Assembly: GCF_040183065.1 (NCBI RefSeq)
Contig: NW_027185501.1
Coordinates: 2,929,501 to 2,993,500, forward strand
Direction: 5' to 3'
Source of the DNA: Periplaneta americana
Lineage: Eukaryota > Arthropoda > Insecta > Blattodea > Blattidae
Length of the DNA: 64,000 bases
The translations under genes were made by a program, and so were the position numbers. The notes under the pieces were generated by a model. That model saw only the letters and a program-made list of their open reading frames with translations. It had not been told where the DNA came from and made no database searches. Below, one piece after another: positions 19,491 to 57,975 of this stretch (positions within the stretch are counted from its first letter, which is position 1; every line of letters begins with the position of its first letter).

Positions 19491-19603
19491 GAACAACAGG
19501 AGCCCATGCAGTGGAAGGCATTGGCATGCAGCCCATGTAGTGGGACCCTGCAATTATCCCAGTCGAAGATCTGGCTACGGAATTAATGATGGTGGACTAC
19601 AAG
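19491..19603 (+). CDS. Possible host-gene exon (low confidence)
   Basis: The 113-base segment follows aaatattgtag and ends CTACAAG before gtaagacc, a good donor. In one frame it is open throughout and reads NNRSPCSGRHWHAAHVVGP and later SGYGINDGGLQ. It would begin by completing a codon with one base and end with one base over (phase 1), which joins in frame to the phase-1 exon at 29676. The protein is not recognised. A chance open frame cannot be excluded, and the pyrimidine tract is weak. Confidence 0.25.
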
Positions 19604-26289: not shown

Positions 26290-27576
26290 CAACTTAATTT
26301 GTAGAACTATTTCTGATCATTCAAAAAATCTGCTAGCAAATTTTTTTTGGTCATTCAAAAGTGAAGAAACTTCCGTTCGAATTTCAAGTAAACGGGACAA
26401 CGCTTTAACATGCGACAACCATCGCACTTCTATGTGTAATAACAATGACTTGTGTAGCCCTATACTCCCCACATCTTCGCACAGAATGCTGAGTAGCAAA
26501 GGTCGTGCCTTAACAAAGTTGATTATTTTGACTACGTTGTGTAGTACTTGCTTTAATAACGCTGGAATTTTTTTCGTTGCGTGAGCGTGTTGGTATAGTG
26601 CACAATGATTAAAATGTGCAGCTTTTTTTTTTTTTTAGCTTCCTTGATCATTGTAACAGCGCCAGAAACAGGACTACCATGACATTTGCGCCATCTGTGC
26701 ACACCTGAATGCAATTGTCTCAAGGTTTTCAATGAAATTTCAGTACCGCTTGTAGAGGATGGCACTGGCTTGCAGAATAAAATATCTTCATGAAAGGACC
26801 TGAAAATTCCTACCGCCCAAACGTCATTAATACAGATAACCCGGCAACGTCCGTGGATTCGTCAAGTTGCATCGAAAATTTAATTTGACTGATAAGGAAA
26901 ATTATGATATTTTTAACATCGTTTGATAGATTCTGTATTCGATTACGCACAGTGTTATTTCGTAAGGGCACACTGAGGATCAAGCTTGCAGTTCTTTCGT
27001 CCACCATGCACTTCACTTCACTACCTTCACTAATAGTGGTTTCATAAGAGTTTAAGCAAGAGTGAGGTTTACCAGCAAGAGCCAGTCATCACTTAACAAG
27101 TACGACGCTTCCAGTGCTTTCTCGTTATTTGTATTTTACACGAGATAAAAATATTGTCCGAACTGCATGGAGTCATCAGTTTTTCTTTTAAAGTACCTAG
27201 TGTGCAGTTTCATTTGTGAAGTCAGGATGAGTTTCGAAATACCGTCTCTAAGCTTGGCAGGGAACATAGAACTATTGGGCAAAACTTTGTTACATATCTC
27301 ACACTCTGGACGTCCATCAGCAAACTCAGGGAATTCCATGTCAAAATATGAATCACAATATTTTCGTTTTTTAATTCCTTTCAGTACCTCTGCACTAGCC
27401 ATCACAGATTCTGAAGCAGGATCATGTTCAACATATTCCGAACTCAATCTCAAGGAATTCGCATTATCTTCCTTTAAAGTAAGGTTACACCTGTTGTTAT
27501 CCCCCTTTAACTGAGCACTGGTTGATAGCTGATGACTCTGGGGTATTACGGAGCCCGTCTTAAGCCACAGTTCCAT
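26290..27576 (-). pseudogene. ZBED5/SCAND3-like hAT transposase
   Basis: From 27576 downward: a leader, then KKRKYCDSYFDMEFPEF and PECEICNKVLPNSSMFPAKL, the finger region of ZBED5-type proteins. LRNNTVRNRIQNLSNDVK and KFSMQLDESTDVAGLS (first catalytic D region) follow at about 26990-26820. VRWLSHVKALSRLLEIRTEV is at about 26440-26370. Stops and frame changes separate these blocks, and the C-terminal dimerisation part beyond 26290 is not found. The gene starts about 400 bp inside the right end of the element, as expected. Confidence 0.75.
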
Positions 27577-28079
27577 TTCAGCTGCAATCTAATTAACGTT
27601 CAGTATACATATTTTCTGAGGCAACATAACAGTCGATAGATTGTAGATTCCACGTATCACGATTAACAAACGCTGCCTGCTTGGTATATAAAACATAAAA
27701 TAAATTTCGAAAATCATCGAGTACTTGGCAAGCAAGAAAAATCGAGATAGTTCCAATAACGAGTAGATCTATTATTGGTGCTTCCATCTACAAAGAAAAC
27801 GTAAACTATTTTCTGAGAAAGTATTTTCACTTGATGGAAGTAGTTTGCGTTTTTCTCGCTAGAGACTAGATGGAAGCAGAAATTTTTGTCATCTTCATAA
27901 CTACCGCGGACGAAATCCCTGAGAACCATTCGCGGAGCCCTGGGTTCCGCGGAGCACACTTTGGAAACCGCTGCCTTAGACTCAGTAAGGGGGGCAAAGG
28001 CTAATTGGGATTTCCCGGTCTTTGATCGGGTCAAAAATCCTGATGGAACTGATATTTAACACTTGCGGTGAATTTCGGT

Positions 28080-28215
28080 GAAGTCCGGAGGGCCTAATTA
28101 GTCAAATCCACTCTCCTCACCTCCACGCTGGGGCCCCCTGGGATCTTTTAAGATGCGAAAGAGAGAGTGGTGTGCGGAAAGCAATGGGAAGCTACCGCAT
28201 TTATATATCCCAAGA
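28080..28215 (-). repeat. Dispersed repeat, inverted relative to 21790-21925
   Basis: Text such as tccacgctggggccccctgg and gcgaaagagagagtggtgtg here is the reverse complement of a segment at about 21790-21925 (ccagggggcccaagcgtgga). The two are separated by 6.2 kb and straddle the hAT border, so they are independent copies of one unnamed repeat. Confidence 0.6.
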
Positions 28216-28351
28216 GAATTTATGATAAAAATGCCATGATGAGTCTTTCCCTGGTAAAAAATTCCGGACGTAAACTATCCCCCCAATCGGATGTCCGGGT
28301 GGGGGATACTGTGGAAGGACATGTCATGACGAAACGCAACGGAGAGAAGAA

Positions 28352-28425
28352 AAGAAGATGGACAAGATGGACAAGAATATGGAGAAGATGGACAAGAATA
28401 TGGAGAAGATGGACAAGAAGATCGA
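28352..28425. repeat. 21-bp minisatellite
   Basis: Three to four copies of agatggacaagaatatggaga. Confidence 0.8.
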
Positions 28426-28959
28426 CTGGAGCGCCGCATATGAACCCTCCACTTCTATCAGGTAATTTGGAAAACTTGAAGGAAGCAATGAGAGGAATCA
28501 GAATGGATGTGATGGGAAAATCATGAGGGGGAAAATAGTGGTGGGTTGATGAGTGACGAATAGTGCTCGGAAGTTGATGAAATATCATATTTTTTTTTTC
28601 TTAGTCATCACAGACAATGCAGAATACAATATAAACTCGTTTCACTTCATGACGAACCAATACAGCCTACTTTTACTTTGTGTTTATTTGCATTTTTTGG
28701 TCTTTTATTCTTTACTGGTCACTTTTTTTAGGAAATGTTCTACTTTATGTTGCATTATTGCCCTTCTATTCTTTTGAACGGACTTTTTTTTACGATGTAG
28801 TCGTAGTCTACATTCCAGAATCTACTGCGGATTGCGTCATGCAGAAAGCTTGGCCCCATTCAACGCAACAGTTGAGGAATACGATTATCTAATATATCTT
28901 TGTTTCCTTAAATATTCATTTATTTCGGGGGTATTCTTGCACATTTGCTTCAGTCTCTA

Positions 28960-29675
28960 GAAATATGTACTAGGTACAAATCGTTTACTCCAAAGTGTTT
29001 AATGCTTTGTTGGCGTGAAGACATTTCGTGGTAGACGAGAAGATTCTAGCCACATAATTTATTCTTTTCAGTTGGAAATTTGAAAACTGTAAGATAATAC
29101 TCTCACTTATAGCACTCTGGCAATTGCTGGTACATACAGGCACACAACATTTAGAAGCCATTTGTAAATAAAAAATATGGATAAATTAATTTCATGTTTA
29201 ATAAAAGTCTAAACTTCTTTTATTTCAGTTCCCTGAATTTATTTTTGTTTGAGGTTGTACCTATATTAGAAGTAACCGTAGCTATGTGCTTAATCTTTTG
29301 ATTCCTTTTCAGACTTTACTTTTATGATTCACTTAATGGTAATAGTTTGGTGACGTACATGCTGTAATGCTACTGTCCGTCCGAGTGGTTATGTCACACG
29401 GTCGTCAAAATGAGGGAAATCACATGACACTTACTTAACAGGGCCCTTTTCTTCTAATTATTTTAAACAGTACTACATTAACTTCCAATTCCGTACAGCA
29501 AATAATTGCAGAGAAGAGCCTAACACCTCAGTTACTAGCCCTTACAGAGAGGACAGGAGAAACTAGTGGGGCAAACAGGGATGCGACATAACCATTCGCC
29601 TGGACAGTACTTATTTATCCCCTTCACAGTTAGCAATCAGTTTATTACAACTCAGAATATTACACTACCTTTCAG
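28960..29675 (+). repeat. Long intron unit (copy U1) upstream of a cassette exon
   Basis: This intronic stretch recurs, diverged, at 51770-52805 (same words: gtttactccaaagtgttta, tagcactctgg, gtccgagtggtta). Its parts also recur in front of each smaller cassette exon (taaattaatttcat..., ttatttat..., then the acceptor). It ends in a polypyrimidine-like cctttcag. The shared introns show that exons and flanks were duplicated together. Confidence 0.7.
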
Positions 29676-29843
29676 CTGGACTTGATACAACTGGCACCCA
29701 GTCTTCGAGCGACCACTTGTTTGAAAACAGCAGCCAGTACGCCGAGTGGGAGGAGAGCGTCAGGGAGCAGGGGCGGAGGCATTTGGTGAAGCTAGAGGCT
29801 CATCTTTTTCACTTCCTACACGAGGCAGACGGGGACTACGAAG
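29676..29843 (+). CDS. Host-gene exon, cassette family member 1 (56 codons)
   Basis: The acceptor ctttcag precedes it and the donor gtacagtaa follows GAAG. It is phase 1 at both ends, 168 bases, open, and reads AGLDTTGTQSSSDHLFENSS, then QYAEWEESVREQGRRHLVKL and EAHLFHFLHEADGDYE. The helical, charged second half looks like genuine protein, but I do not recognise the family. The sequence after the donor (gtacagtaactgttcaaatt) and the last ~70 bases before the acceptor are homologous to the flanks of the four smaller exons, so it belongs to the same duplicated set. It probably represents the older, longer form. Confidence 0.65.
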
Positions 29844-30170
29844 GTACAGTAACTGTTCAAATTCTAAGCTATAGTGGCGCACAAGCAGAGTCCGTGGACA
29901 CGCAGCAGGGCGTAGCGTGCATGGATGCAGGTGATGTGTCGCAGCCCCTGAATTTTTCTGAACAAAAAATATATATTTATCGTTATTTACCGGTACTTTT
30001 TTGTGTGTATCGTGTTATACTTGTTACACGTAATAATGATAATTACTGTGTTATTTGAAGGTTACTTTCAAATTTTAAATGTCGCTGCTACAGCAATGGA
30101 AATATGTTACACGAAGTGACAAAGGCGCGCGCCCGTGCGAATTTATTCACGGCGAGTTCTCACTCCCAAG

Positions 30171-31367
30171 CAGTGGCGTATGCTGAACCTGGAGTTTGGG
30201 TGTTCTGTTAAAAATATATAGTTGGTCTATCTCGCACAATTATGATAGGCCTAAGTGAAATATCGGGTCAACATTAACTGCCATTTTTAATATATAATTT
30301 AGTATTATTTATAAATAAAAACTATGGGACGGATGTTGATGACCTAAAAATCTACTAAAAATGATCATTAAAATGCCCTTAAGCTAATGGAAAAATGACA
30401 TAAAATTAAAAGAAAATGACATTTAAATATTATTCAAAGTACTCGCACCACAACTTCTTATAAATTAACCACCTTGTTTCAATGACTGCCCTGCAAATGC
30501 CGGAGAAAGGAGGCAACTACAAATAATGTTATTCAAAAGGGCATTATTTATGATCAAACAATAACCATGACCAGCAAAATAACCTGTTTGAAGCTCCACA
30601 ACCCGCTAACTATTCTACAATTTCATATTGTGAAATAGAAAAATGTCTAGTGTATTGTTCACTTTTTGTTTTATATTGTTGCACTAAATTCGGAAGTGGC
30701 GGGGTAGGTCTACCCTGATTCACTATATGTAATTTCTCTCCTAGTGGGCGAGAAGAGAATGGCTTTTGCAAAAGATATTTTACAGTGTACATTTGCAAGT
30801 GCTATTATCATTAAATAAGTACCGTAATTCAAATTTTTCACCTGCGCTGGCACACAACTATGAACCCTAGTAAAACCTAAACACAGTAAATTCACTCACA
30901 CAAACAGTAAACACACACGTCAAACACAATATTTTGTAACGCTATTGACAAGTTGAGCTGCCTGTATACAGGACGACCTGCGAGCTTGAGAGAAGCGAGT
31001 ATCCCCACCACTCCACCGTGCGCACGCAGAGAATTATAGCAGTAACTCTCAGCAGGGGATGTTCTTTTGTACGGTCAGGACAACCAGACCAGATCTCATC
31101 CCACTTCGTCAGGCAGAGCGTAAGTTTTAAAACGAAAGCCGTTCTGGGGATGGTGTGCACATTCAACCAGCAGGCATTTAAAATATTTAAATGGTAATAA
31201 ATTAAAATTAGTCTTGAACTATATACGTCAACTTCCAATGAGATTACCACGCATTTAAATTGTAATACATTAAAATTATTGTTGCATTGTATAAAACAAC
31301 TTAAAATAAAAATTGAGATTACCGAATTTACAGTGCACACCTTGAACACCCGCAATATACGCCCCTG
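30171..31367. mobile_element. Non-autonomous hAT in the intron
   Basis: A perfect 8-bp duplication ctcccaag at 30163-30170 and 31368-31375 flanks inverted ends CAGTGGCGTATGCTGAAC and, reversed, CAGGGGCGTATATTGC, both followed by GGGTGTTC nearby. No transposase. 1,197 bp. Confidence 0.85.
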
Positions 31368-31375
31368 CTCCCAAG

Positions 31376-32037
31376 AAATGTGACCGTGTATGTCGCATCG
31401 GTAGGAGCATGTCAGAGCGAGGCAACGTCCAACTGCTGAGTGAAAGAACGTAACTTATACCTGAGTGCAGACTGCAGAGAATACAATAGGTTCGTTCCAA
31501 CAAGCGGTTCATGAATCAATTCATGTACGGTTCCTGTACCATCTTATGCACATGCGCTAGTTGAGCATCTGCTGTGGGATTGAAACTGGACTGGACGCTG
31601 TTGGAACGCTTTCGCGGATCGTTATGTACTAAATCCAGAGATGCTATAACTGTGATCATCTTTGCTAAGAATGGGATGCTTAATTATTATCGTTTCGCAG
31701 CTAATTCTAATTGCAGAAAATAGAATTTCGATCATTTTCTATAAAAAAAGACAAAAAAATATGGAAGGCAAGAATTCCGCTAATTCAATGTCGTGTACTG
31801 GGGGACTCTCATCTAAAAATAGTTATTTTTTAATTATTAATGTATGTACGTTATTTATTAATCAAAGCTGCATGTTGAAATCGTAATTAACTATTTCAAT
31901 ACCCAAATAATTTCCATTCCCTTTCTTTTTGGCGAAAATTTAAATTAAATCTCTAGTTTTATTATTCGTCTGTACTGTCACTTTTCATCTTTAACCTCAC
32001 TGATGTGAACAGTGGATCATGTCCTTCTTCCAACGAG
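31376..32037. other. Unassigned intronic sequence
   Basis: Contains ttccaacaagcggtt at about 31495, mirrored by gcttgttggaa at about 32815. This could mark an older element around the MITE at 32040, but no target duplication supports it. Confidence 0.35.
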
Positions 32038-32039
32038 TA

Positions 32040-32657
32040 AGGGTACGTACAAGTTGGAGCGACGATAAACGATAAAAGAAATGACCTAGCGACGTTTTGG
32101 TATTATCAAAGAATCAAGTGTTCATATCGGAGCAACGAGGACGCGAGAAGAAAACATTTCGATTTATCAGTAGAAGATATTCTATGCATCCACTTAATGA
32201 AAGAAGATATATAGAAAGTATCAGCTGCCAAGTTCAAGGTTAATATAACTTAAATACGTACAAAATTAAACCCGTTTCTCATCCCAAAGATACTATAAAT
32301 TCGTTGTGTTGTGATTGGTTCTTGTGATCACATAACACAGGACGAATAAATACACAACTAATCAATTTGTCAATATCTACAATAATTAAATAAGCTGAAA
32401 TAATAATAAATAGATTAATATTCGGATATATTGATAACCACCGGTAATTATACAAATTAATATTATCTTAATCAGAGATCATATGAACGACAAGAGCGAA
32501 GAAAATGGAACTTTTCTTTTTCGTCGCTTTTATCGTGTATCTTCGCTTTTATCGTTACTCCAATATGCACACCTCGATGACAATGCATGCTTCAATTCTC
32601 CCTCATATAGCATCGCTGCTTTTATCGTTTATCATCGCTCCAACGTGTACGTACCCT
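32040..32657. mobile_element. MITE with ~35-bp inverted ends and TA duplication
   Basis: The left end AGGGTACGTACAAGTTGGAG and the reversed right end AGGGTACGTACACGTTGGAG share a further CGATAAACGATAAAAG-type stretch. TA lies on both sides (32038-32039 and 32658-32659). No coding sequence. Consistent with a Tc1/mariner-class MITE; a PIF-type TAA/TTA reading is possible. Confidence 0.7.
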
Positions 32658-32959
32658 TAGAAAGAGAGAGATTTTCTAACTCGTTGCTTTCTTCAGTATC
32701 AAGGAGACGTTGGTGAGCTTATGCGCATGCGCATCTCTCGTACTCTTCCGTACATGCCTCAATCCGCGGACTATTTCTGACAGTTCGGAACGCGTTCCGA
32801 ACCCGTGTCAAAAGCTTGTTGGAATGCCCGACTTCAGTACATGTTTCCGGTTCAGGACTGGTTCGGATTGTGTTGGAAGGCTTTTTCTGTACTGCGCATG
32901 AAGTTGTAGCGAACATGGCTTCAACAGAGGAAGCGAAAGAACGAAGCTTGGGATATTTA

Positions 32960-33545
32960 TTTTTTGGTCAAGATTTGAAAAGGTCAACCTTTGTCAAGTC
33001 CTTACATCTAGCTTTCATTTAACATCACATTGTAAATCTGGGAGATTAAATTGGAGATCTAACCGCATTATTCGTACATCCGCTGGAAAAGGATAGAGGT
33101 ACAGAGATAAAAATAATAACAATAATAATAACAAAATAATAATAATAATAATAATACTTCACCTTTTAATTTTTCATGAGTGACATGTAGTATAATGCCC
33201 TTTTATGTTATACAACCGTTTCCTCGTAATACTTGTGAACAAATCATACATGTAATATTCTCATCATATCGGCAGCAAAAAATGCGTCCTCCCATCCTCC
33301 TTGAAACTTTCGTTTTTGTAGAGGTACATGGTTTCGAGAGAGACATTGGACGATATGCCACTCGCAGGTCAGAGACAAATAAACCAATGGAACGGAGTTT
33401 GATTCCAGTGAGTGAGAGGGTGGGGGTTGGGGAAGGGAGGAAGTAAGAGAAATGCACAGCTATCATTGCGAGTCATAATGTGCTCGTGAGTCATATTTTC
33501 ACCACGGATGCCTTAGACCACAACGCCACGGCTGTAGTTGTTTTA
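32960..33545 (-). mobile_element. Truncated relative of the hAT at 7557-8614, inverted
   Basis: The reverse complement matches the 7.5-8.1 kb element: YDENITCMICSQVLRGNGC at about 33290-33220, the cctcccatcctcc flank, and the end words ttttcaccacgg and cgccacggctgt near 33495-33535. The C-terminal piece is at about 32975-33110. It too lacks the catalytic middle, and a short (AAT)n run sits at the deletion site as (TTA)n does in the other copy, so both derive from one deleted master. Confidence 0.7.
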
Positions 33546-33945
33546 GTTGTCCTGTAATAGCTCAAGTACTGTAGATTTGTGTAGTTTAACTATACAGAAT
33601 ACCGGTAACAATCTTAATATTTTTTCAAACAGTTTTTTTATCCGTCCCGGTAATAGATTCGCTTACTGAAAACTAGCAGGTCTATTTCAAAGTTTCTCAA
33701 ATTGTTATTTATTTGGTTCTGACCTATCCCGTGATTAGAAAGTTCGCTCACTCTTATATGATCAGAAAATTGTATACCAGATACCTTTGAATGCCAGTGT
33801 GCACACCAGACACTCTACATTTAGAAGCCATCTGTAAATAAAAGAATAAGGATAAATTAATTCCATTTCTTAAATAAAATTCGAAATTACTTTTGTTTCA
33901 GTTTATTGAATTTATTTTTCTTTAAGGCTATACGTGCGTTAGAAC

Positions 33946-35733
33946 TGCAATAGTGGCTCGCTGTTATAAAGGTTGGCAGATCTGCATGAAAAATAGTGTA
34001 TTTAACAAACGCATGCTGTTTATTGCATCTAAATCGGATAATGCGTGTAATTACCCCCTTCTCGAAGTTGACTGTACACCCGAAATTGTACTCCAACTAT
34101 CCGCGCGCCCTATCCACTACGTGCGCTACACCTATCCCACCTGGCACTAGTTACGTAGTGGAGATGTGCCCCATACATTGATACCTGAATGAACAACCAT
34201 GAGGAACTTTCTATCGTTCGAACGCTTTTAACTCCTATCGAATTTCTTTACGTCAACTTTTCTAGCCTATACCCGTACCGGCAGACGGAATTATAAAACA
34301 GAGAGCTGGAAGTTCCCACAGACTTGCAATAAAGTATCGTAACTTGACCCGTTTCTGAACATGTTTGTTGCATTATTAAATTTAATTCCTTGACAAGAAA
34401 TGAGCTGTGGGACACATAAAAAATTCTCCGTGTTTCCCATTCATTACGTTAGCCCCGCCATTAACCAGCAAAATTAATTCATGTTGTTCAATTATGACTG
34501 AATTTCCGTTAAACCTATATTCCATTAAGATAGTTTGCATCAAACTTTTTGCGTCATGTTTTGGTGGCAATGAAGAGAAATTTCCAATAATTTTATTGCT
34601 ATCCAGCAATTAATTTTGAATTGTTTCCATAGTTCCTTTCAATTGTGACGAGCCTTTGGAAGTTTAGGCCTAATCTAATTGTGGAGCAAAATCAGTCAAA
34701 CCCAGAAATATATCGCGGTTTGTTGAATCTCCTGATTCAGCAAGTCCTCGCATCGCTAATTCAAATGCGGCACAGAATTTCACACAGTTAATTATTTTAG
34801 GTAGACCATATCTCTCTTTAGAAACATTTCCTTCTTGTTTCTGAATGTTAATCCAATACGCAGAATCAAGCTGTGTTAGAATATTTTAATATCGTTAACA
34901 GTGACAAATCTGTTTGACTTGAAATGAGTTTTCGAATTTTCATGCTCTTATAGTTTTTTAAGTCAAATTAACTAAATCCTTCACTCCGGTCTTTGTCCAT
35001 GTATTTTCTCCTCTAAACAGAATACATGGGTGGGGGAGAAAGCGTTTTCATGAGCGCAGCAAAAAAACCAATCGTTTCCATTACACATTTCGGTATTAAA
35101 ATGACTAGTAGGCTACATGATTTCCTCGACTTTTTCCAGAAATTTCCAAATTTAAATTTGGTGTAGGACGTCCTAATTTCTTAAGTTAACGTGCAATTTC
35201 TCTTTTAATTTCGAAAAGGATTGGTCGATTAGGATTTCATTTCATTCATTTTTAATATAAAATATTTCCTTAGACACACTGACTATTCACATCACATCAG
35301 CCACAGTACTATAACACACTGGAACTGTAATGATATACAGTAAGTTCAGAAGCCTATGTGTTCTAACGCAGGTCATAAAGAGATGAGGGTGTTGGCGGTT
35401 CTTTTGTATATTCGAACAGATCTGCTTCGGTTGCAGCTCCAATGCAGTCTTATGGGGCGGTGAAGAAAACCAGTTTTCTGCTGCCGACTACGCTGCGTTG
35501 AGCTCCAGGAACTGCCGATCACAGATCAGAATAGTACACTATAGCTAAAATTCTCCAGCAGTTCAAGGCTCCTACAGACAATAAAATCTCGAATCGAAGG
35601 AGAATGAATTGGAAAATAAATGAAACAATGAACTAGATTACATAAAAGCACGTTTTACATTTTTAATTTTTTTTCAGGTCCATTTAAATGGCGGTTCTGC
35701 AGCTCTACAGTTCTTATTGTAGAGCCGCCCCTG
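33946..35733 (-). mobile_element. ZMYM/DUF4371-type hAT inside a cassette unit
   Basis: The target is the gttagaag word of the cassette intron: gttagaac at 33938-33945 and gttagaag at 35734-35741. The right end reversed reads CAGGGGCGGCTCTAC. The left end is degraded and keeps only GGCTC. Minus-strand transposase pieces lie inside. The intron unit before exon 35872 is thus split into 33780-33945 and 35734-35871. Confidence 0.65.
34380..34910 (-). pseudogene. DUF4371-type hAT transposase fragment
   Basis: Read downward from 34910: YGLPKIINCVKFCAAFELAM, RGLAESGDSTNRDIFLG and LTDFAPQLD, then KGTMETIQN. After a gap come VNGGANVMNGKHGEF and PTAHFLSRN, corresponding to the DGAxNMSGxxxG and AHxLNL region. 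Several stops. No downstream dimerisation region. Same broad group as the fragment at 16.24 kb but not the same copy. Confidence 0.65.
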
Positions 35734-35871
35734 GTTAGAAGTAACTTTACTACGCGCTTTAACTTTTGATTCACGTACATAACTGTCTCGTACCTATTTA
35801 TCCTGTTCATTACATTCGCTAACAATCATTTTATTACGAAGATTAAGGCACAGAATTATATTGCATTTTAG

Positions 35872-35961
35872 ATGGACACTGCAGTGACCCAATGTACCTC
35901 AGCGAGAAAAGCTCAACATCCAGCTTGACTAGCCAGAGCAGCGCAGCCAGTCTGTCAGAAG
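35872..35961 (+). CDS. Cassette exon A (30 codons)
   Basis: Acceptor ttgcattttag, donor GAAG|gtacct. Phase 1 at both ends, 90 bases, open. It reads DGHCSDPMYLSEKSSTSSL, then TSQSSAASLSE. Serine-rich and polar, with no recognised domain. The equivalent exons at 42898, 43291 and 43687 share DG at the start and SSL near the middle. Its upstream intron is the unit split by the hAT at 33946-35733. The downstream intron is the next unit, split by a LINE. Confidence 0.65.
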
Positions 35962-35989
35962 GTACCTACAGCAATTGTTTACATTCTGA

Positions 35990-36166
35990 GGTGGTGGCGC
36001 TTTCAGCTACGAACAAGTTCGAATTTTACTGTGAATAAAAGTATAGGGATAAATTAATTTCATTTCTTAAATAAAATTCGAAATTAGTATTGAATTTATT
36101 TTTCTTTAAAGCTATACGTGCGTTAGAAATAACTTTTCTTCGCTCTTCAACTTTTGATTCACGTAC
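35990..36166 (+). repeat. Left direct repeat flanking the 4.8-kb LINE
   Basis: Runs from ggtggtggcgctttcagcta to gattcacgtac, immediately before the LINE. The right partner, 41002-41191, is nearly identical except for 13 bases missing here. The repeat borders coincide with both LINE ends, as a target duplication would. Confidence 0.7.
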
Positions 36167-36266
36167 AGTTTGCCGGCGACAGCAGAGCAGGAAACATCGT
36201 GTGTCGTACGTAGTCCGTGCGTGAGTGTTACATTGTGCGTTTGTTTTGATAACCTTGTAGTGAAAC

Positions 36267-37490
36267 ATGAATAGTGCAGTTAAAAGGGAAAATACTTTAA
36301 AAGCAATATTTAATAAAGAGGAAACGCGTCCTACAGCATTTGACATACATAGATGGATAGAAGAAGGGTTACGTATAAAAGACACGGAAATACAAGTGAT
36401 TCAGTTAGTAGGGAAACAAAATGCACTGTATATTAAACTTACAAATAAAATTAGTTATGAACATTACCTACAACAACATACTGGATCATCATCCGTTAAA
36501 CTTATGAATGGAGATAATGTAACAGTCAACATAACCCCTGCAGACGAAGAAGTCGTGATGGTACGAGTGCTCAACATACCACCGGAAGTGTCCAATGAAA
36601 GAATACGACAGAACTATGGGAAAGTGCAACATATAGAAAATGAAAAGTGGTCATCCAAATTTCGATATAATGTCTATACCGGTATACGCATTACACACAT
36701 GGTATTAAACAAGGTCATACCTTCGTCGATTGTCATAGCCGGTCACGAAGCCTATGTAACTTACCCTGGGCAGGAACTTACGTGTTTTTCTTGTGGAAGT
36801 ACAGCTCAAATACGGCAAGCGTGTCCTAATAGGAATGTAAAAGCCCCTGTGACGGTACAATCTCGAACACGTCTTACACTGAGTGACTTGATCCCTTCTT
36901 CTAGTGTTTCCACAGCAGCGACAACTCCTACTATGACTAGTGTTTCATCTGAAAATGGGACTGATAGTTTATCCGAAAAACAAGCATCTATTGGTACTTC
37001 GGATACAAAATTAATGCACGAGAGTACTTTATTGCAAAAGAAATCAATAACGCAAAAGAGTAGTGTACTGACTGATAAGACGGTGACTATGACGATAGAA
37101 CAGGGTGACTCGGAAACAGATTCAGCAGATGAAGTATCAGAGATTCTTCACGAGTAACCAGTGAAAAAGTATAAAGCAATGGAATCTTCTGACACTGGTG
37201 AGTGTTCTGCCAATGGGCAGAAGAATCCTGTCGACGTTGTTGTTCCGGCTACTACAGGTGATTCAAAGGATCCTGAAGAAATTCGGGGAGCAACAGCAGC
37301 AGTTCCAGAGGATTGGAATGAAGCAATGCAACAAGAAGAGCAAGATCCTGGATCGACAAACAAGTCCTCGTCACAGGAGATTGGTGTTAAGAAATTGGCT
37401 AAAAGCAGTAATTCTCCTAAACATCTTTCTCACCCTTACAAAGGAGAAGGTAGTAAACTAGGATTTCCATTATTACGTCCAGTTGACTAG
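36267..37490 (+). pseudogene. LINE ORF1 with one in-frame stop
   Basis: Begins MNSAVKRENTLKAIFNKEE. A central region (VVMVRVLNIPPEVSNERIRQ) looks like an RNA-binding fold. One zinc-knuckle-like motif follows, CFSCGSTAQIRQAC, in which the usual histidine is glutamine (CX2CX4HX4C has Q at the H position). The C-terminal third is Ser/Thr-rich. A TAA at 37155-37157 interrupts the frame, which continues in phase (KKYKAMESSDTGECSANG) to 37490. The product would bind the LINE RNA in a ribonucleoprotein. Confidence 0.75.
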
Positions 37491-37519
37491 ATCTTTGACC
37501 GACGATTACTGGTTGTGCA

Positions 37520-40500
37520 TTGTGCAACATGTTGTTGAAGTTTGTTCTGCTATTGGCTGAAGTGATGACCATCACTATACGTATTGCCACTGTGAATTTC
37601 AATAATAATTCCTCGCCCACAAAACTTTATGCATTGAAACGTTTTTTAGTGGAGCACGTTGTTGATATTCTTTTCCTTCAAGAGGTATCCACTGCAGATT
37701 TTTCGTCCTTATATAATTATACATCATATGTGATTCTAGGTACTTCTCGGTTGGGTACAGCTCTCATTACCAGAGCTGGAATTAATCTCCAGTCAGTTGT
37801 ACAACTTCCCTCTGGTAGAGGTATTTGTGGACGTTTCAATGGTTATGGTTTTGTCAATATTTATGCTCCTTCAGGTAGCAATAAACGGCAAGAGAGGAAT
37901 GAATTTTTTCAAACGGATGTTCCTTATCTCATGCGTTCCCTGAATGATGCTTATGTGTTTGGAGGAGATTTTAACTGTGTACTCCGTCCGCAAGATTGTA
38001 TGGGAGAGTATCGATCTAGCAATACACTGCAGCGTTTGGTGACAGGACTACAAATGAGTGATGCCTGGTTAATGAAGCATAATGATGTTGGTTATATATG
38101 TGGCTAGTAATTCTGCTGCTAGATTAGATCGTTTTTACGTCCATCGGTCAATAGCTCCAAACATTCGATGAATTGAGATCATTCCTGTAGCCTTTTCTGA
38201 TCACTCAGCGGTCATAATGCATATTGAAATGAATATGTCGTTTTTGATATTTGGACGTCCCTACTGGAAAATGAACATAAGGTGTCTTCAAATCCCACAA
38301 GTAATGAAGAGCTACATCAGTTGTGGACTGAATGGTCGAAGAAGAAGAAATCCGAATATCATGATGTAGTGAATTGGTGGGGATATTATATTAAATCTCA
38401 ATTAAAGAAATATTTCCAAAGACAAACTTATCTTCAATATCATGCCAATGAACATAATCTTAATTTCTATCATCAATGCCTGCTCGACTTGCATCATAGT
38501 TCCATATCACACTCAGAACGACGCACTCAACTCAACAAATATAAAGCTAAAATTTTGGGAATTCTTAGACAGCGAATGGAGAGCTTAAAAGTTCGAAGCG
38601 GACTAATCCCTCCCATAACAGACGAAAGAATCAACCTCTTCCATCTTATACAGACGCATAATAGAAAACGCGCTACCATGATCAGAAAAATTCAAGACAA
38701 CACAGGCCAGCACTATACTACACAACATGATACATAAGTAACGCATTTCTGTTGCATTTTAGCAATATTTTTCAAGAAAAATCCCACAATTCACCTTCTC
38801 TACGATATTTTGATTCAGTCAAGATCGCTACCGTATCAGAAGAAGAAAACCTATTGCTTGAACAGCCGGTCACTAAAGAAGAAGTTTACACGGCGCTTTG
38901 TCAAGGTAAGCGCTCAAGAACACCCGGAATTGATGGAATTCCACTAGAATTTTATTTAACCTGCTGGGAAATAATTAAGGACGACTTAACAACAGTGATA
39001 AATGCAATTCTACATCGGAAGAAGCTCTGTGCATCGCAACAGAAAGGTATTATTGTTCTTATTAAGAAAAAAGTCGATGCGGTCACCGTGCACGATTACA
39101 GGCCTATTACATTGCTCACATATGACTATAAAATTATAGCTAGAATATTAGCCAACCGCATAACACCGCTTCTAAGTAAGCTCCTACCTCTAGCACAGTA
39201 CTGTGGCTCGTCTGAGCGTACTATCTTTAATGTGGTGTGCTCCCTGAGAGATTGTGTTGCTACTTCGCTTGAAGATAAAATCAAGAGATTATTGTGTTCC
39301 ATCGATTTTGAACGTGCCTTCGACAACGTGAATCATAATTTCATGTTCCAGTGTCTAGCATGGTACGGTTTCAGTGACACTTTTATCTCCTATATCAAAT
39401 GTCTTTATAGTGGAATTAATAGTCAGATTCAAATAAATGGTTTTCGTTCACCAACGATCAATATCACTAAATCGATTAGACAAGGTTGTCCTCTTTTTAT
39501 GTTATTGTTTACTTTAGTACTTAATCCACTTATATGTAAATTGCATAATTCTATTACTGGTATTTCCCTCAAGGAGCAGAAGTTAGCGGTAGTTGCGTAT
39601 GCGGATGACGTCAGTGTTTTGCTTTCAAATGAAAAGGATGTTGAACAAGTTAAAACTATTTTGAATGAATTCAGTAACATTTCAGGGCTACGTATCAACG
39701 AGCAAAAATCCAAGATTCTTCCGATAGGACAGTGGCAAGTACTTCCGCAGATACCTCCACTGCAAACAGTGAAGACCATCAAAATTCTTGGGATTGTGTT
39801 TTCGGCTTCTATAGGAGAGATGATACATCTCAATTGGAAGAGAATTGTTCAAAAGATTAAAGTAACAGCGCAAGACTTATATTTTCGTGATTTGTGTTTG
39901 TATCAACGAAGTTGGGCTGTACAGACGTATATACTGTCCAAGTGTTGGTATTTAGCCCAAGTGTTACCATTAACAAATTCTTACGCACGACAAATTAATT
40001 GTGCAATATCGTGGTATATTTGGAGAGGTTGTGTGTTTCGGGTGCCTATGTCAGCATTAACCTGCAGTCCATCACAAGGTGGTATTGGATTAATACATGT
40101 CATAGACAAATGTCTTGCGTTATTCCTAAGCAGAGGGAGAAGGATTCAACTTTCTAATGCTTGTTACTCAGCGGCATGGCTCCAACATTGGTCACTTAAA
40201 TCGGACCTTCGAAATCCACCTGATCTTCATGTAATCCCAAGGTCGTTACTATATCTTCAAGTTTATTTGCTGGAATGGTGTTACATGGACTCACTAGGTG
40301 CAGATCCGAATACGAGACTTGTTCAGGTAGTGTACCAGAATCTTAGAGGAAGGTCTCCTCCACAACAAATGCGTATACAACGAATCGCCCCTACCAATGT
40401 GAATTATGATCAACTCTGGCGTAACATCAGCTACCCTGCTTTGTCTTTTGATGTCCGCTCCACCTGGTTTAAGGCGGTACATGACGTGGTGGCCACACGC

Positions 40501-40917
40501 ACTCCCCTTTTCTCCATCAGGTTGAGTCTAACGGAAGTTTGCCCCTCGTGTCAACAACAGGACACTATCCTGCACCGCATCTCAACATGTTCTTCTGTTA
40601 GTGACAATTTTGAAGCTGCCACGAGTTATGTACGGAACCTAGGTTTAATCAACTGTTCACCCGAGAAGTTCCTTCGTCCCGATTTTCAAATTTCACCCCG
40701 TCCTAGACTAAATGCCATCTTGTGGGTTTTAGGTAATACAATTTCTTATGTGTTGCAAAATCATGGAGCTTTAGACAAGGCTGTATATTTGGATTTTCTC
40801 AAACGGACACGGTGGAAGACGCGACAGCACAGTCAACACAAGATTATGTTTGGCAGTTTCATTGACATTGTAGAAAGGTTCAAAGATCACAGGGAAAGTG
40901 TTAAACTTATACATTAA
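37520..40917 (+). pseudogene. LINE ORF2: endonuclease and reverse transcriptase
   Basis: APE-type endonuclease motifs are IRIATVNFNNNSS, ILFLQEVS, NIYAPSG, VFGGDFNCVL and SDHSAV. The frame changes near 38100, contains a TGA near 38169, and changes again near 38740. From 38752 the reverse transcriptase is open for 721 codons: RSRTPGIDGIPLEFY, DYRPITLLTYDYKI, SIDFERAFDNVNH, IRQGCPLFMLLF and AYADDVSVLL (active site YADD). CPSCQQQDTILH with a later C forms the C-terminal knuckle. Its role is to nick the target and copy the LINE RNA there. Confidence 0.85.
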
Positions 40918-41001
40918 TTTACTTTTATTGTTGTATTCATTCGTATTTTATGTATAGTATGAGAACGGTATAATAAAAAAGTGGCTTAAAAAAAAATAAA
41001 A

Positions 41002-41191
41002 GGTGGTGGCGCTTTCAGCTACGAACAAGTTCGAATTTTACTGTGAATAAAAGTATAGGGATAAATTAATTTCATTTCTTAAATAAAATTCGAAATTAGT
41101 TTTGTTTCAGTGCATTGAATTTATTTTTCTTTAAAGCTATACGTGCGTTAGAAATAACTTTTCTTCGCTCTTCAACTTTTGATTCACATAC
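41002..41191 (+). repeat. Right direct repeat flanking the 4.8-kb LINE
   Basis: Near-identical partner of 35990-36166, including private variants (gaaattag, gttagaaataact) not seen in the cassette introns at 43.1 and 43.5 kb. Starts directly after the LINE's A-rich tail. Confidence 0.7.
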
Positions 41192-42802
41192 ACTTAGCGG
41201 CAAAAAGAATGGGCCGACTCTTGGTCGATAGAAATGCTAAGTTCTATCGCGCGGTTCACTCTTGTAAACGTAACGCACTGCAAGGCATTGCTGTGGTGTC
41301 TCTTCATTGAAAGTCGTCCGTCTATAATGTAATAACCCTTACGAGCAGTGTGTGGCCCAGTGATAAGAAGGTTGACATCCGTATCAGGAGTTATGAGTTC
41401 GCCTCCCGGTGCAGTAAAATTATTTCTTTTATTTTCACTTTTACTTAATTTATTAGTTTAAATGTGAAATGGCATTTGTTAACAAACTTCGTTATGCCTG
41501 CTTTGTAAAAATATTATTGTCCATCACCTGTGGGCTATTAATAGGTGAGACCTGGCCTGTATAAACAAAAATACTTGTTTCACATCCTAAAAAAACGGAT
41601 GCATATCAAACAAAAATAAATAATTAAATTAACAAAAACAAACAATTTGTTAGGATATTAACAAAACAAGGCTGTGGTGGGGACTAGTATCTCGTCCACA
41701 AACCACCTGCGTCAACAACTGCCCTCATTCTGCGCGGCATGGAATCCACAAGATTATGGAACAGGTCTAAATTCTTGCCATCTCCTCCCACGCATCTAGA
41801 ACTCTGTCCCACAATTCCTCAGGTGTCCGAACTGGTGGTTGTTCTGCCCAATTAGAGCGTAGGATCCTTTTGACTGCAGCCCACAAATTTTGAATCGGAT
41901 TCATATCTGGTGAATTTGGAGGCCAGTCGACTGGGTCGACATCACGCCTCCTCGTAAACTACCTTTGAATCCGGTTGGCGGTGTGTATCGGATGATTATC
42001 CTGCTGGAAGAAAAGTGTTCCTTCTGGATATCGTTTTCGGGCGGAAGGGATCATTACATTTGTCAAAATGTGTTCGTAGACTTCTGCCGTAAACCGTCCG
42101 TGGCTGCGTTCGTTGCTATTGGAGACAATTACCTCGTCGGAGAAAATGATATTTCTCCAATCGAAGTCCTGTTGGAGAGTAGCATACGCAGAATAACCTA
42201 TGCGAACCAGGGCAATGATTTATTGTTTCTGTGCCATCTTCAAGCGTAATGACGAGAGAGAACGTTGTATTAACAGATAGCAGTATTGCTTGAAAGAGAG
42301 AGGGAGGTTTATTATTTATTAGAGTTTGGCCATATTCTAAGAGATATCGCCACTTAATTAAAGCTTTGCGAGACACATATGATGGCAAATTTGTAATAAA
42401 AAAAAAAGAAGATTGAGAGAGATTCGAACCTTGAGCTACTACTACTACTACTACTACTACTAGCTTGTTCAATAGACCAGTGCCGTAACGACTTACGCTA
42501 CTGTGACTGTTAATATCAGTTCGGCATAATCCGTGATTTTCCTGTTCATATTCGCTCCGGTTGATTTTGTATTTATCAATTTTATTATTATTTCACTCTT
42601 CAAGGGTTCTGATGTATCTAGAATCAACCCGCCATTCGATTTTATTACATATTTTAGAATCTTAAACAAAATACAGCAAATTTAAATGGTTTAATTATGT
42701 GTTACCTGGTAAACTATGGCTTTGACGAGACGAGCATGCGCAATGTTATGTCTCTTGAACTTAAAAAATTGTCGGCTGGCCCATTCTTTTTGCCGCTAAG
42801 TG
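41191..42802 (-). mobile_element. Tc1-like transposon in the cassette intron
   Basis: Perfect 25-bp inverted ends (CACTTAGCGGCAAAAAGAAT then GGGCC) and TA on both sides (41189-41190 and 42803-42804). Inserted in the intron just before exon 42898. Length 1,612 bp, the usual size for Tc1. An (ACT)n run is at about 42436-42461. Confidence 0.9.
41700..42110 (-). pseudogene. Tc1-like transposase C-terminal part
   Basis: Minus-strand translation gives RFTAEVYEHILTNVMIPSA, LFFQQDNHPIHTANRIQ (second catalytic D), a stop, then VDWPPNSPDMNPIQNLWAAV. The third catalytic position, normally E in PIENLW, is Q. Further stops follow. The N-terminal DNA-binding half is not readable. Dead copy. Confidence 0.8.
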
Positions 42803-42897
42803 TACATACTGTGTACTACCTATTTATCCTGTTCATTACATTCGCTAGCAATCATTTTATTACGAAGATTAAAACACAGAATTATATTGCATTTTAG

Positions 42898-42984
42898 ATG
42901 GACTCTGCAGCGACGCGACGTACCACAGCGGTAGCTCAACATCCAGCTTGACTACACAGAGTAATGCAGCCAGTCTGTTAGAAG
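42898..42984 (+). CDS. Cassette exon B (29 codons)
   Basis: Acceptor ttgcattttag, donor GAAG|gtacag. Phase 1 at both ends, 87 bases, open: DGLCSDATYHSGSSTSSL, then TTQSNAASLLE. One codon shorter than A and C, so the length change keeps the frame. The next unit starts 393 bp downstream. Confidence 0.65.
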
Positions 42985-43290
42985 GTACAGCAATTGTTTA
43001 CATTCTGAGGTGGTGGCGCTTTCAGCTACGAACAAGTTCGAATTTTACTGTGAATAAAAGTATAGGGATAAATTAATTTCATTTCTTAAATAAAATTCGA
43101 AATTACTTTTGTCTCAGTGTATTGAATTTATTTTTCTTCAAAGCTATACATGCGATATAAATAACTTTTCTTCGTTCTTCAACTTTTGATTCACTTACAT
43201 ACTGTCTCGTACCTATTTATCCTGTTCATTACATTCGTTAACAATCATTTTATTACGAAGATTAAAGCACAGAATTATATTGCGTTTCAG

Positions 43291-43380
43291 ATGGACTCTG
43301 CAGCGACCCGACGTGCCACAGCGAGGAAAGCTCAACATCCAGCTTGACTACACTGTGCAGCACAGTCCATATGTTAAAAG
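43291..43380 (+). CDS. Cassette exon C (30 codons)
   Basis: Acceptor ttgcgtttcag, donor AAAG|gtacag. Phase 1 at both ends, 90 bases, open: DGLCSDPTCHSEESSTSSL, then TTLCSTVHMLK. The second half departs from A and B but no stop arises. Its flanks match those of B and D at 393-396 bp spacing. Confidence 0.6.
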
Positions 43381-43686
43381 GTACAGCAATTGTTTACATT
43401 CTGAGGCGGTGGCGCTTTCAGCCACGAACAAGTTCGAATTTTACAGTAAATAAAAGTATAGCAATAAATTAATTTCATTCCTTAAATAAAATTCGAAATT
43501 ACTTTTGTTTCAGTTTATTGAATTTATTTTTCTTTAAGGCTATACGTGCGTTAGAAGTAACTTTACTTCGCGCTTCAATTTTGGATTCGCGTACATAGCG
43601 TGTACTACCTATTTATCATGTTCATTACATTCACTAAAAATTATTTTATTACGACGATTGAAACACAGAATTATATTGCATTTTAG

Positions 43687-43788
43687 ATGGACAGCACAGC
43701 GAGCCCGACCTGAGGTACTTCTGCTACTACTACGCCAGCAGAGAATCCAGCTTGACTGCACAGAGCAGCGAAGCCAGTCTTTTAGAAG
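43687..43788 (+). CDS. Cassette exon D (34 codons)
   Basis: Acceptor ttgcattttag, donor GAAG|gtacaa. Phase 1 at both ends, 102 bases, open: DGQHSEPDLRYFCYYYAS, then RESSLTAQSSEASLLE. Twelve bases longer than A, adding an aromatic run, again in multiples of three. The following intron is cut by the LINE at 43917. Confidence 0.65.
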
Positions 43789-51769: not shown

Positions 51770-52809
51770 ACAGTGTAATTCGTTTACTCCAAAGTGTTTA
51801 AGTGAATGCTTTGTTGACGTGAAGGCATTTCGTGGTATACGAGTAGCTTCTAGCCACGTAACTTATCCTTTTCAGTTGGACATTTGAGAACTGTAACATA
51901 ACACTCTCATTTATAGCACTCTGGTAATTGCTGGTACACACAGGCATACAACATTCAGGAGCCATCTGTAAATATAAGAATATGGGTAAATTAATTCCAT
52001 TTTTAATGAAAGTACAGTATAACTTTCTTTATTTCAAATCCCTGAATTTATTTTTCTTTGAGATTATACCTATATTAGGATTAAACATTACTACGTCCTT
52101 CGTCTTTTTAATTCCTGTCAGACTTTACTTTTATAATTGGAATTGTATTCCAATGGATACCATCCCATTGTGGAATTCTGGGAAACGAGAATGCGGATGC
52201 TTTAGCAAAGAAGGGCAGCACTGCTACTTACAGACCTGTTACTAAATCTACGTATTAATCTGTGAGGAGGTTTATTAAATCTACATATTTAGACTTCAAC
52301 AAACAAAATTTGATAGCTCAATCCCAAGGGAAAAAATGGAACACTCTGCATCAAAATCCACAGTTAATTCCCGATTTACCACGAAAATCGTATGTAGCTG
52401 CATTTAGATTGGCAACAGGCCATGATTGTTTGGCCAAACACCTGCATAGAATTGGAATATACCAGTCCCCTAACTGCCCATTGTGCAACTCAAACCAAGA
52501 AATGGATTCGGAACACCTCAAAATCTGTGCTTGAGTGGCTGGTCATGATAATATCTTTGAAAAATATTGGAGTGCGAGAGGTCAAATGACTTTATTGTCA
52601 AACGCCTGGCATTAGAAAACAACAACAACTTTTATAATTCACTTATTGTTAGCAGTCTGGTGACGTGCATTTTGTCATGCTACTGCCCGTCCGAGTGGTT
52701 AGGTCACATGGTCGTCAAAACAGGGGAAATCACATGATAATCACTTACTTAGACTAAGAGAGCCTTTTTCTTTAAATTATTTTAAACAGTTGTATAATAC
52801 TACGTAAAC
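51770..52809 (+). repeat. Truncated cassette intron unit (copy U3) with a LINE inside
   Basis: Matches 28960-29485 in order (gtttactccaaagtgtttaa, tagcactctggtaattgctg, ctttacttttataatt, gcccgtccgagtggtta, attattttaaacagt). It stops where the SINE-derived array begins at 52810, so the exon that should follow is absent. A LINE copy at 52139-52628 interrupts it. Confidence 0.75.
52139..52628 (+). mobile_element. 5'-truncated RNase H LINE copy with target duplication
   Basis: The duplication acttttataatt is at 52127-52138 and 52629-52640. It encodes the end of RNase H (WIPSHCGILGNENADALAKK-like), SVRRFIKSTYLDFNKQN, QSQGKKWNTLHQNPQLIP and the knuckle CPLCNSNQEMDSEHLKIC, then a TGA. The 3' end is GGCATTAGAAAACAACAACAAC, the same as the inverted copy at 5015. 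A stop (TAA) after SVR-coding text and the truncation make it dead. The U1 copy at 29.3 kb shows the empty site. Confidence 0.85.
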
Positions 52810-55460
52810 TGCAAATCAAGATTTCAGGTATAACTCCCTGTAAAGTTGATTTGAATAATTTCGAGGGAAAAATTGTTCCGGAGCCGGGTATCGAACCCGG
52901 GGCCTTTGGTTTAACGTACCAACGCTCTACCACTGAGCTACTCGGGAACTCTAACCGACACCGATCCAATTTTTCCCTCTATATCCACAGACCTCAAAGT
53001 GGGCTGACAACCGTCAAGCAACCAACTTCGAGTGCACACTAACTCCGTGTGACTTAAATTGTGGTCTTCTGTTAACGAATAGTGACGTGTATTATGCAAA
53101 TCAACATTTCAGGTGTAACTCCCTGTAAAGTTGATTTGAATAATTTCGAGGGTAAAATTGTTCCGGAGCCGGGTATCGAACCCGGGGCCTTTGGTTTAAC
53201 GTACCAACGCTCTACCACTGAGCTACTCGGGAACTCTAACCGACACCGATCCAATTTTTCCCTCTATATCCACAGACCTCAAAGTGGGCTGACAACCGTC
53301 AAGCAACCAACTTCGAGTGCACACTAACTCCGTGTGACTTAAATTGTGGTTTTCTGTTAACGAACAGTGACGTGTATTATGCAAATCAAGATTTCAGGTA
53401 TAACTCCCTGTAAAGTTGATTTGAATAATTTCGAGGGTAAAATTGTTCCGGAGCCGGGTATCGAACCCGGGGCCTTTGGTTTAACGTACCAACGCTCTAC
53501 CACTGAGCTACTCGGGAACTCTAACCGACACCGATCCAATTTTTCCCTCTATATCCACAGACCTCAAAGTGGGCTGACAACCGTCAAGCAACCAACTTCG
53601 AGTGCACACTAACTCCGTGTGACTTAAATTGTGGTTTTCTGTTAACGAACAGTGACGTGTATTATGCAAATCAAGATTTCAGGTATACTTCCCTGTAAAG
53701 TTGATTTGAATAATTTCGAGGGAAAAATTGTTCCTGAGCCGGGTATCGAACACGGGGCCTTTGGTTTAACGTACCAACGCTCTACCACTGAGCTACTCGG
53801 GAACTCTAACCGACACCGATCCAATTTTTCCCTCTATATCCACAGACCTCAAAGTGGGCTGACAACCGTCAAGCAACCAACTTCGAGTGCACACTAACTC
53901 CGTGTGACTTAAATTATGGTTTTCTGTTAACGAACAGTGACGTGTATTATGCAAATCAAGATTTCAGGTATAACTCCCTGTAAAGTTGATTTGAATAATT
54001 TCGAGGGAAAAATTGTTCCTGAGCCGGGTATCGAACCCGGGGCCTTTGGTTTAACGTACCAACGCTCTACCACTGAGCTACTCGGGAACTCTAACCGACA
54101 CCGATCCAATTTTTCCCTCTATATCCACAGACCTCAAAGTGGGCTGACAACCGTCAAGCAACCAACTTCGAGTGCACACTAACTCCGTGTGACTTAAATT
54201 GTGGTTTTCTGTTAACGAACAGTGACGTGTATTATGCAAATCAAGATTTCAGGTATAACTCCCTGTAAGGTTGATTTGAATAATTTCGAGGGAAAAATTG
54301 TTCCGGAGCCGGGTGTCGAACCCGGGGCCTTTGGTTTAACGTACCAACGCTCTACCACTGAGCTACTCGGGAACTCTAACCGACACCGATCCAATTTTTC
54401 CCTCTATATCCACAGACCTCAAAGTGGGCTGACAACCGTCAAGCAACCAACTTCGAGTGCACACTAACTCCGTGTGACTTAAATTATGGTTTTCTGTTAA
54501 CGAACAGTGACGTGTATTATGCAAATCAAGATTTCAGGTATAACTCCCTGTAAAGTTGATTTGAATAATTTCGAAGAAAAAATTGTTCCGGAGCCGGGTA
54601 CCGAACCCGGGGCCTTTGGTTTAACGTACCAACGCTCTACCACTGAGCTACTCGGGAACTCTAACCGACACCGATCCAATTTTTCCCTCTATATCCACAG
54701 ACCTCAAAGTGGGCTGACAACCGTCAAGCAACCAACTTCGAGTGCACACTAACTCCGTGTGACTTAAATTGTGGTCTTCTGTTAACGAATAGTGACGTGT
54801 ATTATGCAAATCAACATTTCAGGTGTAACTCCCTGTAAAGTTGATTTGAATAATTTCGAGGGTAAAATTGTTCCGGAGCCGGGTATCGAACCCGGGGCCT
54901 TTGGTTTAACGTACCAACGCTCTACCACTGAGCTACTCGGGAACTCTAACCGACACCGATCCAATTTTTCCCTCTATATCCACAGACCTCAAAGTGGGCT
55001 GACAACCGTCAAGCAACCAACTTCGAGTGCACACTAACTCCGTGTGACTCAAATTGTGGTTTTCTGTTAACGAACAGTGACGTGTATTATGCAAATCAAG
55101 ATTTCAGGTATAACTCCCTGTAAGGTAGATTTGAATAATTTCGAGGGAAAAATTGTTCCGGAGCCGGGTATCGAACCCGGGGCCTTTGGTTTAACGTACC
55201 AACGCTCTACCACTGAGCTACTCGGGAACTCTAACCGACACCGATCCAATTTTTCCCTCTCTATCCACAGACCTCAAAGTGGGCTGACAACCGTCAAGCA
55301 ACCAACTTCGAGTGCACACTATCTCCGTGTGACTTAAATTGTGGTTTTCTGTTAACGCACAGTGACGTGTATTATGCAAATCAAGATTTCAGGTATAACT
55401 CCCTGTAAAGTTGATTTGAATAATTTCGAGGGAAAAATGTTTCCGGAGCCGGGTATCGAA
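52810..55460 (-). repeat. SINE-derived satellite, array 2 (nine full units plus a partial)
   Basis: Strict 285-bp period. tRNA-like blocks on the minus strand start at 52876, 53161, 53446, 53731, 54016, 54301, 54586, 54871 and 55156 (72 bases each), and a partial one ends at 55460. Units are almost identical. Relative to array 1 the anticodon loop is ACGTTAA, losing the otherwise universal T at position 33. The array ends at the SINE 3' end (52810) and breaks off inside a tRNA-like block at 55460. Variant units at about 53058-53340 and 54768-55050 share the same private changes, six units apart. Confidence 0.92.
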
Positions 55461-56419: not shown

Positions 56420-56920
56420 TTGTCTTTAGGAAGTGCAGTTACAATACCGAATTGAAATACAGTATATTACAAGACACATTTTCATTGTCTCAAACGTAAA
56501 TCTTTTTCGGTTATCTGCCAAACACAGTTTGTACTGTGAAAAACTGCGCTCTACGTCACATGACGAAAAAATCTAACATCATTACAGTCTCTGAGAGACA
56601 GTCCTTTATTCTGGGGTGACTCTGTATCAATTAATTTGCTGTTTATATTACACAGTGATCCATGTCCGTTATTTTTACATAAAATTGATTTCCACTTCTA
56701 TTTTACACGTTCAGTAACCGGTGTACTTGATGTCTCATTAAATCTCTGCATCATTTTCTAAATTAATTTGAGGGATTCTGGCATCTCTTGCTCTGACTTT
56801 TCTAACCGTGTAATAGTTTCAGACACAGTTTGAAAATATATTTGTAAGAAAACCAAATTATTCGTCAGAACCTTCAAATCCAGAGCGTTTTCCTTTGCGT
56901 ATTTTTTGGCATTCATTCTA
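56420..56920 (-). pseudogene. hAT transposase C-terminal (dimerisation) fragment
   Basis: Minus strand: KKYAKENALDLKVLTNNLVF, then QIYFQTVSETITRLEKSEQE, a stop, and later SCDVERSFSQYKLCLADNRK with RFTFETMKMCLVIYC. ERSFS...N-R...F is the signature of the hAT C-terminal dimerisation region. The upstream catalytic part is missing. This is a different hAT group from the ZBED5-like and DUF4371-type copies, nearer CGGBP1-like transposases. Confidence 0.65.
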
Positions 56921-57970: not shown

Positions 57971-57975
57971 AACCT

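Follow-up and report, generated by a model that had tools for sequence, protein, structure and literature searches.

Rapid exon evolution tied to segmental duplication is known mainly from primates. Among the families concerned, the Olduvai units of the NBPF genes bear exons. Published accounts place these units in tandem inside duplicated genes, with a variable copy number. For NPIP (morpheus, the primate core duplicon LCR16a), two reports describe interspersed segmental duplications, an exon structure that shifts while the frame stays open, and positive selection (PMC7419210), as well as internal coding repeats that differ in number between paralogs (PMC2812944). Exons that outpace their flanking introns, and that are enriched in primate segmental duplications, are described in a third report (PMC3906575). 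In insects, Dscam-type clusters are tandem arrays of homologous exons within a gene. Here we describe a 64,000-nucleotide stretch of the genome of the American cockroach, Periplaneta americana (C20:2929501-2993500; hereafter, the window, whose own numbering is used throughout). It appears to carry one copy of a many-copy gene family in which serine-rich exons were duplicated a different number of times per copy. From sequence comparison, five segments of the window (exon A and cassettes B to E) are probably coding exons of this copy of a multicopy family spread in segmental duplications, with the cassettes included additively.

The cockroach family is likewise many-copy, keeps its frame and varies in repeat number, and it works like NPIP and the accelerated primate exons; the likeness is one of mode, and a sequence relation to NPIP is not known. 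NPIP repeats lie inside one exon, whereas the cockroach unit is a whole exon with its intron, and positive selection is not established in the cockroach. The NBPF protein is not known to be related, and its unit measures ~1.6 kb, compared with ~0.4 kb and one exon here. The accelerated primate exons were identified between human and macaque, whereas our comparison is between paralogs and cassettes of one gene. In contrast to Dscam-type clusters, no docking/selector pairing was found in one cockroach paralog, and copies differ in how long and how many their cassettes are. No description of the cockroach gene family was found in the literature looked through, which was partly cockroach-specific and covered subscription journals thinly.

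Cassette exons in the window and its paralogs

A first-pass annotation of the window had proposed a cluster of duplicated, frame-preserving exons. All five segments lie at exactly the annotated positions (Table 1), with AG before and GT after, the annotated lengths and a phase-1 frame without stops, and the starts of cassettes C, D and E are spaced 393 and 396 bp apart. The introns around all five had been called homologous; this holds around B to E over most of the 396-bp unit, whereas around A the matches are confined to 29164-29304, 29607-29648 and 29841-29868. Divergence of the second half, ascribed to C and D, is present in D and not in C. Self-comparison of the window also revealed remnants of the cassette unit at the orphan piece and the donor-side remnant listed in Table 1, and more faintly at 51968-52101; upstream of exon A, at 29164-29304, lies an older relative.

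Paralogous cassettes were sought by a profile search for splice flanks followed by pairing of both flanks, so that AG/GT borders are partly given by construction, whereas length and openness are not. Every one of the 60 paired exon records has a length divisible by three and is stop-free in phase 1. As L006 and c12 are one locus, the six L006 records were dropped, leaving 54, i.e., 2 A-type exons and 52 cassettes with 33 distinct cassette sequences. The cassettes number four in the window, seven in C12, eight in C8, two in each of two C15 genes, three in L039 and at least two in L038. As in a core duplicon, internal coding repeats vary in number with the frame kept. Cassette sequence changes without frame loss, as had been annotated: the cassette frame is kept and the residues are not. 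Several flank matches had no partner. Unpaired acceptors were one strong site in L038 and those that precede the terminal exon in c12, c8r and c15; unpaired donors were the donor side at 41001 in the window, a site at the L008 edge and that of exon A in c12, whose acceptor scored below the cut of 12. Weak matches made up the rest.

Such open frames might simply be segmental-duplication debris, that is, an older gene passively copied whose frames are open since the copies are young. This is consistent with a ratio of non-synonymous to synonymous rates (omega) near 1, with transposons inserted into the array and with the lack of a terminal exon in the window (see below). We nevertheless consider debris an unlikely account, since a set of 33 cassette sequences, all stop-free, was rare under neutral simulation (four settings of 2000 runs each gave 20, 30, 5 and 13 such outcomes) and the diverged cassettes of L038, L039 and the C15 genes have kept open frames, triplet lengths and AG/GT borders, with one further L038 acceptor lacking a donor. 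The phase of exon 1 is also maintained despite length change, its start-to-donor lengths being 226, 226, 238, 166, 208 and 187 nt (1 mod 3 in 6 of the 6 copies looked at).

Exon A is expanded in some other members by an in-frame 111-bp tandem repeat, with 13 copies at L022:2141-3583 and 17 at L021:2961-4849. This repeat growth is a second route to the same end as cassette addition.

Evidence for splicing of the family

One relative on C14, L019, has exon 1 joined to an A-type exon without an intron, exactly at the predicted junction. Compared with the intron-bearing relative L046, it is 94% identical up to the donor (L046 983) and 84% identical from L046 2573, a short way into the A-type exon, and the 1.6-kb intron between them is absent. 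Because the joint matches the donor and acceptor of L046, L019 has the look of a processed copy made from a transcript after splicing, which argues that the family has been spliced. Together with the frames and borders kept in paralogs, the intronless copy supports the annotated reading of frame-preserving, tandemly duplicated symmetric exons, here in a spliced gene family.

The C5/C11 family was considered as a second processed copy; the joint in L021 is not at a GT donor of L023, so a genomic fusion is likelier there. Intronless relatives at L019:4016-8644 (C14:54.96 Mb) stand in ~9.1-kb units, with open frames of 399-1542 amino acids among the matches listed, and most of the L019 frame consists of a minisatellite whose period is of the 12-bp type.

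Hand-made scores were used in two exon scans of the plus strand. Both ranked a segment containing exon A first, at 29630-29930 (20.1 vs 17.5) and 29676-29930 (43.8 vs 25.2), choosing a donor (29930) later than the annotated one. The short cassettes B to E do not stand out in these scans and are among many candidates.

Additive inclusion or choice among cassettes

In the mechanism that we propose, all cassettes would be spliced in series, so that the protein would grow and vary by exon addition. Unequal exchange between near-identical 396-bp units could then lengthen or shorten the protein without loss of frame. The annotation had instead pictured a gene able to choose among its cassettes, as in mutually exclusive or combinatorial splicing, where one or some cassettes are picked per transcript. 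Tandem homologous exons of equal phase are indeed present, symmetric phase 1-1 exons in tandem allow any choice without frame loss, and tandem exon duplication is described as an origin of mutually exclusive exons (PMC6071210). Choice among cassettes was not borne out. The window cassettes share near-identical splice flanks with GT-AG borders, the tandem introns are ~306 nt, and cassette number differs between paralogs.

Docking-site complementarity was assessed for parts of two flanking introns (~2.1 and 2.5 kb) in one compact paralog (C12), with 12 shuffled controls for each. The array intron scored 14.5 against one flanking intron (controls: mean 13.0, maximum 15.0) and 15.0 against the other (controls: mean 14.4, maximum 18.0), and thus competing docking/selector pairing was not found in this paralog, a result that leaves room for other selection mechanisms. 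Overall, splicing choice appears improbable. We judged additive inclusion likeliest because flanks and introns are near-identical, complementarity lies within the controls and cassette number varies between paralogs, the last of which fits additive growth; it seems likelier than mutually exclusive choice.

Substitution rates of cassettes and their flanks

Exons evolved at 1.66 vs 0.82 for the flanks when all 33 distinct cassettes were compared over 17 gap-free codons, with twice the log-likelihood difference (2 delta lnL) at 33.3. A set of 19 B/C/D-type sequences (28 codons), which leaves out the E-type sequences, L038, L039 and c15, gave 1.30 vs 0.87 (2 delta lnL 5.5). Rates at codon positions 1, 2 and 3 were 1.76, 1.88 and 1.35 in the larger set and 1.02, 1.69 and 1.21 in the smaller one; upstream flanks evolved at 0.95 and 0.94, and downstream flanks at 0.69 and 0.80, respectively. 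The comparison of synonymous and non-synonymous change suggested in the first-pass annotation was run among cassettes with a codon model and returned an omega of 1.263 (lnL -985.12 vs -985.75 at omega 1), not different from 1. Cassette residues may be under weak constraint or diversifying selection.

Copies across the genome and a possible mobile origin

The genome searched comprises 3,231,669,367 bases in 91 contigs, and all family copy counts given here are lower bounds. The stretch from C to E had at least 85 matches (40 of 483 candidates scored); among those listed, three other places matched at 99%, five at 93-96% and the remainder lower, and the matches on C15 form ladders with steps of ~40 kb. 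The exon A peptide had at least 150 matches, 144 of the listed 150 without a stop (150 of 773 candidates scored), and exon A was matched at 96-100% at no fewer than seven other places. A 1.8-kb probe (56600-58400) is also matched at 99-100% in the three closest twins of the window copy, at a distance of 26.5-29.5 kb from exon A of the respective twin. As for a core duplicon, many copies are found in segmental duplications on several chromosomes. Among the matches listed, many family members are located at ~134-186 Mb of C15, in the first 11 Mb of C12 and on small unplaced contigs.

Copy number would also be accounted for if the exons were part of a mobile element carrying a multi-exon gene. 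Four other members, on C2, C19, C26 and C12, share 99.3-99.5% identity across 5.7 kb or more, the exon 1 query returned 1524 first-look candidates, and an 11-nt inverted repeat ~3.95 kb apart surrounds exon 1 and A in four near-identical copies. However, the window, c12, c8r, c15, L046 and L047 lack this inverted repeat, no direct repeat lies beside it in L040, and identity runs past it to the ends of the compared stretches. The minus-strand frames at 26317-27588, which by eye resemble a transposase of hAT/zinc-finger type, lie within sequence that the window shares with c12 and c8r and have no counterpart in c15 or L040. Moreover, at the three places probed, copies of the window type show matches that span 26.5-29.5 kb, and others stand in the ~40-kb ladders, as segmental duplications do. 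We regard a mobile element as the least probable of the alternatives, and quite unlikely.

By a motif, exon 1 and the sequence following it (27975-28847) may resemble the start of a long interspersed nuclear element (LINE) endonuclease frame. As the 5' end of an RTE-type LINE, exon 1 found no Pfam support, and the longest open frame was 191 amino acids among the 150 matches listed of 736 candidates, so the resemblance is no more than a tentative lead.

Organization of the window copy

The gene model was built by comparing diverged copies. In this model, a gene copy would consist of exon 1, exon A, 2-8 serine-rich cassettes and a terminal exon, all introns being in phase 1. The terminal exon (an acidic stretch with an Arg/Phe-rich tail) is present in c12, c8r and c15, with its acceptor placed by eye. 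A terminal-exon-like peptide from L019 found no counterpart in the window. In the genome search (150 of 269 candidates scored), terminal exons were listed for C12, C13, two C15 places and C8, whereas in the vicinity of the window copy and of the three twins closest to it the matches listed included none. A copy with a terminal exon lies at C12:8.18-8.20 Mb and has relatives on C13 and C15. The window copy appears to lack a normal 3' end and may be a truncated gene or pseudogene. The first-pass annotation had noted neither this apparent lack nor the existence of many copies, the latter not being visible from the window.

Table 1 Features of the gene copy and of the insertions in the window.
Feature	Position	Strand	Details
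Exon 1	27975..28461	+	Start codon 28236; donor after 28461 (TATCAG/GTAATT), phase 1; coding part (28236-28461) predicts a basic, repetitive RWTR-type stretch
Exon 1, 5' untranslated region (probable)	from ~27975	+	Suggested by homology block beginning at 27974-27976 in c15 and L040
Exon A	29676..29843	+	168 nt, phase 1-1; SSQYAEWEE-type stretch
Orphan cassette-intron piece	33832..33944	+	Separated from B by 1.79-kb insertion
Insertion	33945-35733		1.79 kb; GTTAGAA at both edges
Cassette B	35872..35961	+	90 nt, phase 1-1
LINE-type retrotransposon inside array	~36168..40999	+	Class by eye; borders estimated from flanking cassette-intron copies
Reverse-transcriptase-like open reading frame in this retrotransposon	38731-40917		
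Cassette-intron remnant	41001..41189	+	Part of donor side recognised; without acceptor or exon
Inserted element, Tc1-like by eye	~41190..42803	.	27-nt inverted repeats at ends
Cassette C	42898..42984	+	87 nt, phase 1-1
Cassette D	43291..43380	+	90 nt, phase 1-1
Cassette E	43687..43788	+	102 nt, phase 1-1
Counterpart of sequence upstream of terminal exon in c12 and c8r	51777..52816	+	Paralog of 28978-29471; interrupted by LINE fragment
285-bp tandem array, tRNA-Asn-like units	52810..55460	-	Position where other copies have the terminal exon

A second 285-bp tandem array with tRNA-Asn-like units was detected at 10704-11601, in the opposite orientation to that at 52810-55460. Frames at 12497-13761 have, by eye, reverse-transcriptase-like and GIY-YIG-like stretches (Penelope-like).

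Similarity searches

The Pfam scan covered exon A, cassettes B and C, the terminal exon and exon 1. With E up to 10, no match was obtained for exon A or for cassettes B and C, nor when a candidate exon (19491-19603) was appended to A or B, nor for the terminal exon; for exon 1, a Rho RNA-binding model was matched once, below threshold (E 0.1). The candidate exon has a good donor and a negative coding score, and was excluded from the model. Sequence searches of PDB gave nothing beyond chance level, either for exon A by itself or for its fusion with the candidate. No relative of exon A was found in viral and bacterial collections (one query each), and the array-intron pattern had no match in the viral collection.

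Implications for exon evolution

Several observations weigh against the reading of the segments as additively included coding exons. By hand-made scores, B, C and E have mediocre acceptors, at the 69th percentile of all AG sites in the window, with D at the 85th, A at the 92nd and the donors of the segments at the 90th-96th. Among the matches listed, none extends over two cassettes (150 of 269 candidates scored, with the query in one order), and therefore no retrocopy displays cassettes in mRNA; L019 carries none and so does not demonstrate their use. The open frames partly reflect recent duplication, because many copies are near-identical. Since an omega of 1.26 is so close in fit to 1 (2 delta lnL 1.26), relaxed constraint is as good an explanation as diversifying selection. 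Between B and C within the window, synonymous exceeds non-synonymous divergence (dS > dN), and exon A, across 14 distinct sequences, has an omega of 0.635 that likewise does not reach significance (2 delta lnL 2.88). Third codon positions outpace the flanks too (1.35 and 1.21), so that selection on residues alone does not explain the fast exons, and mutation may have a share in them.

With these points weighed, coding exons of a multicopy family, joined additively, are still the reading that we favor. A further-reaching proposal, which we put forward tentatively and think rather doubtful, is that the family is an insect counterpart of primate core duplicons, dispersed over many chromosomes by segmental duplication. 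Protein length would then be tuned in each copy by duplicating a 0.4-kb unit of one exon with its intron, and diversifying selection would drive exons faster than introns. If true, the exon evolution associated with segmental duplication would have arisen also in an insect with a large genome. The copies with two to eight cassettes would then form a natural series for following the growth of exon arrays and for asking if mutually exclusive splicing is a necessary outcome of duplicating exons in tandem.

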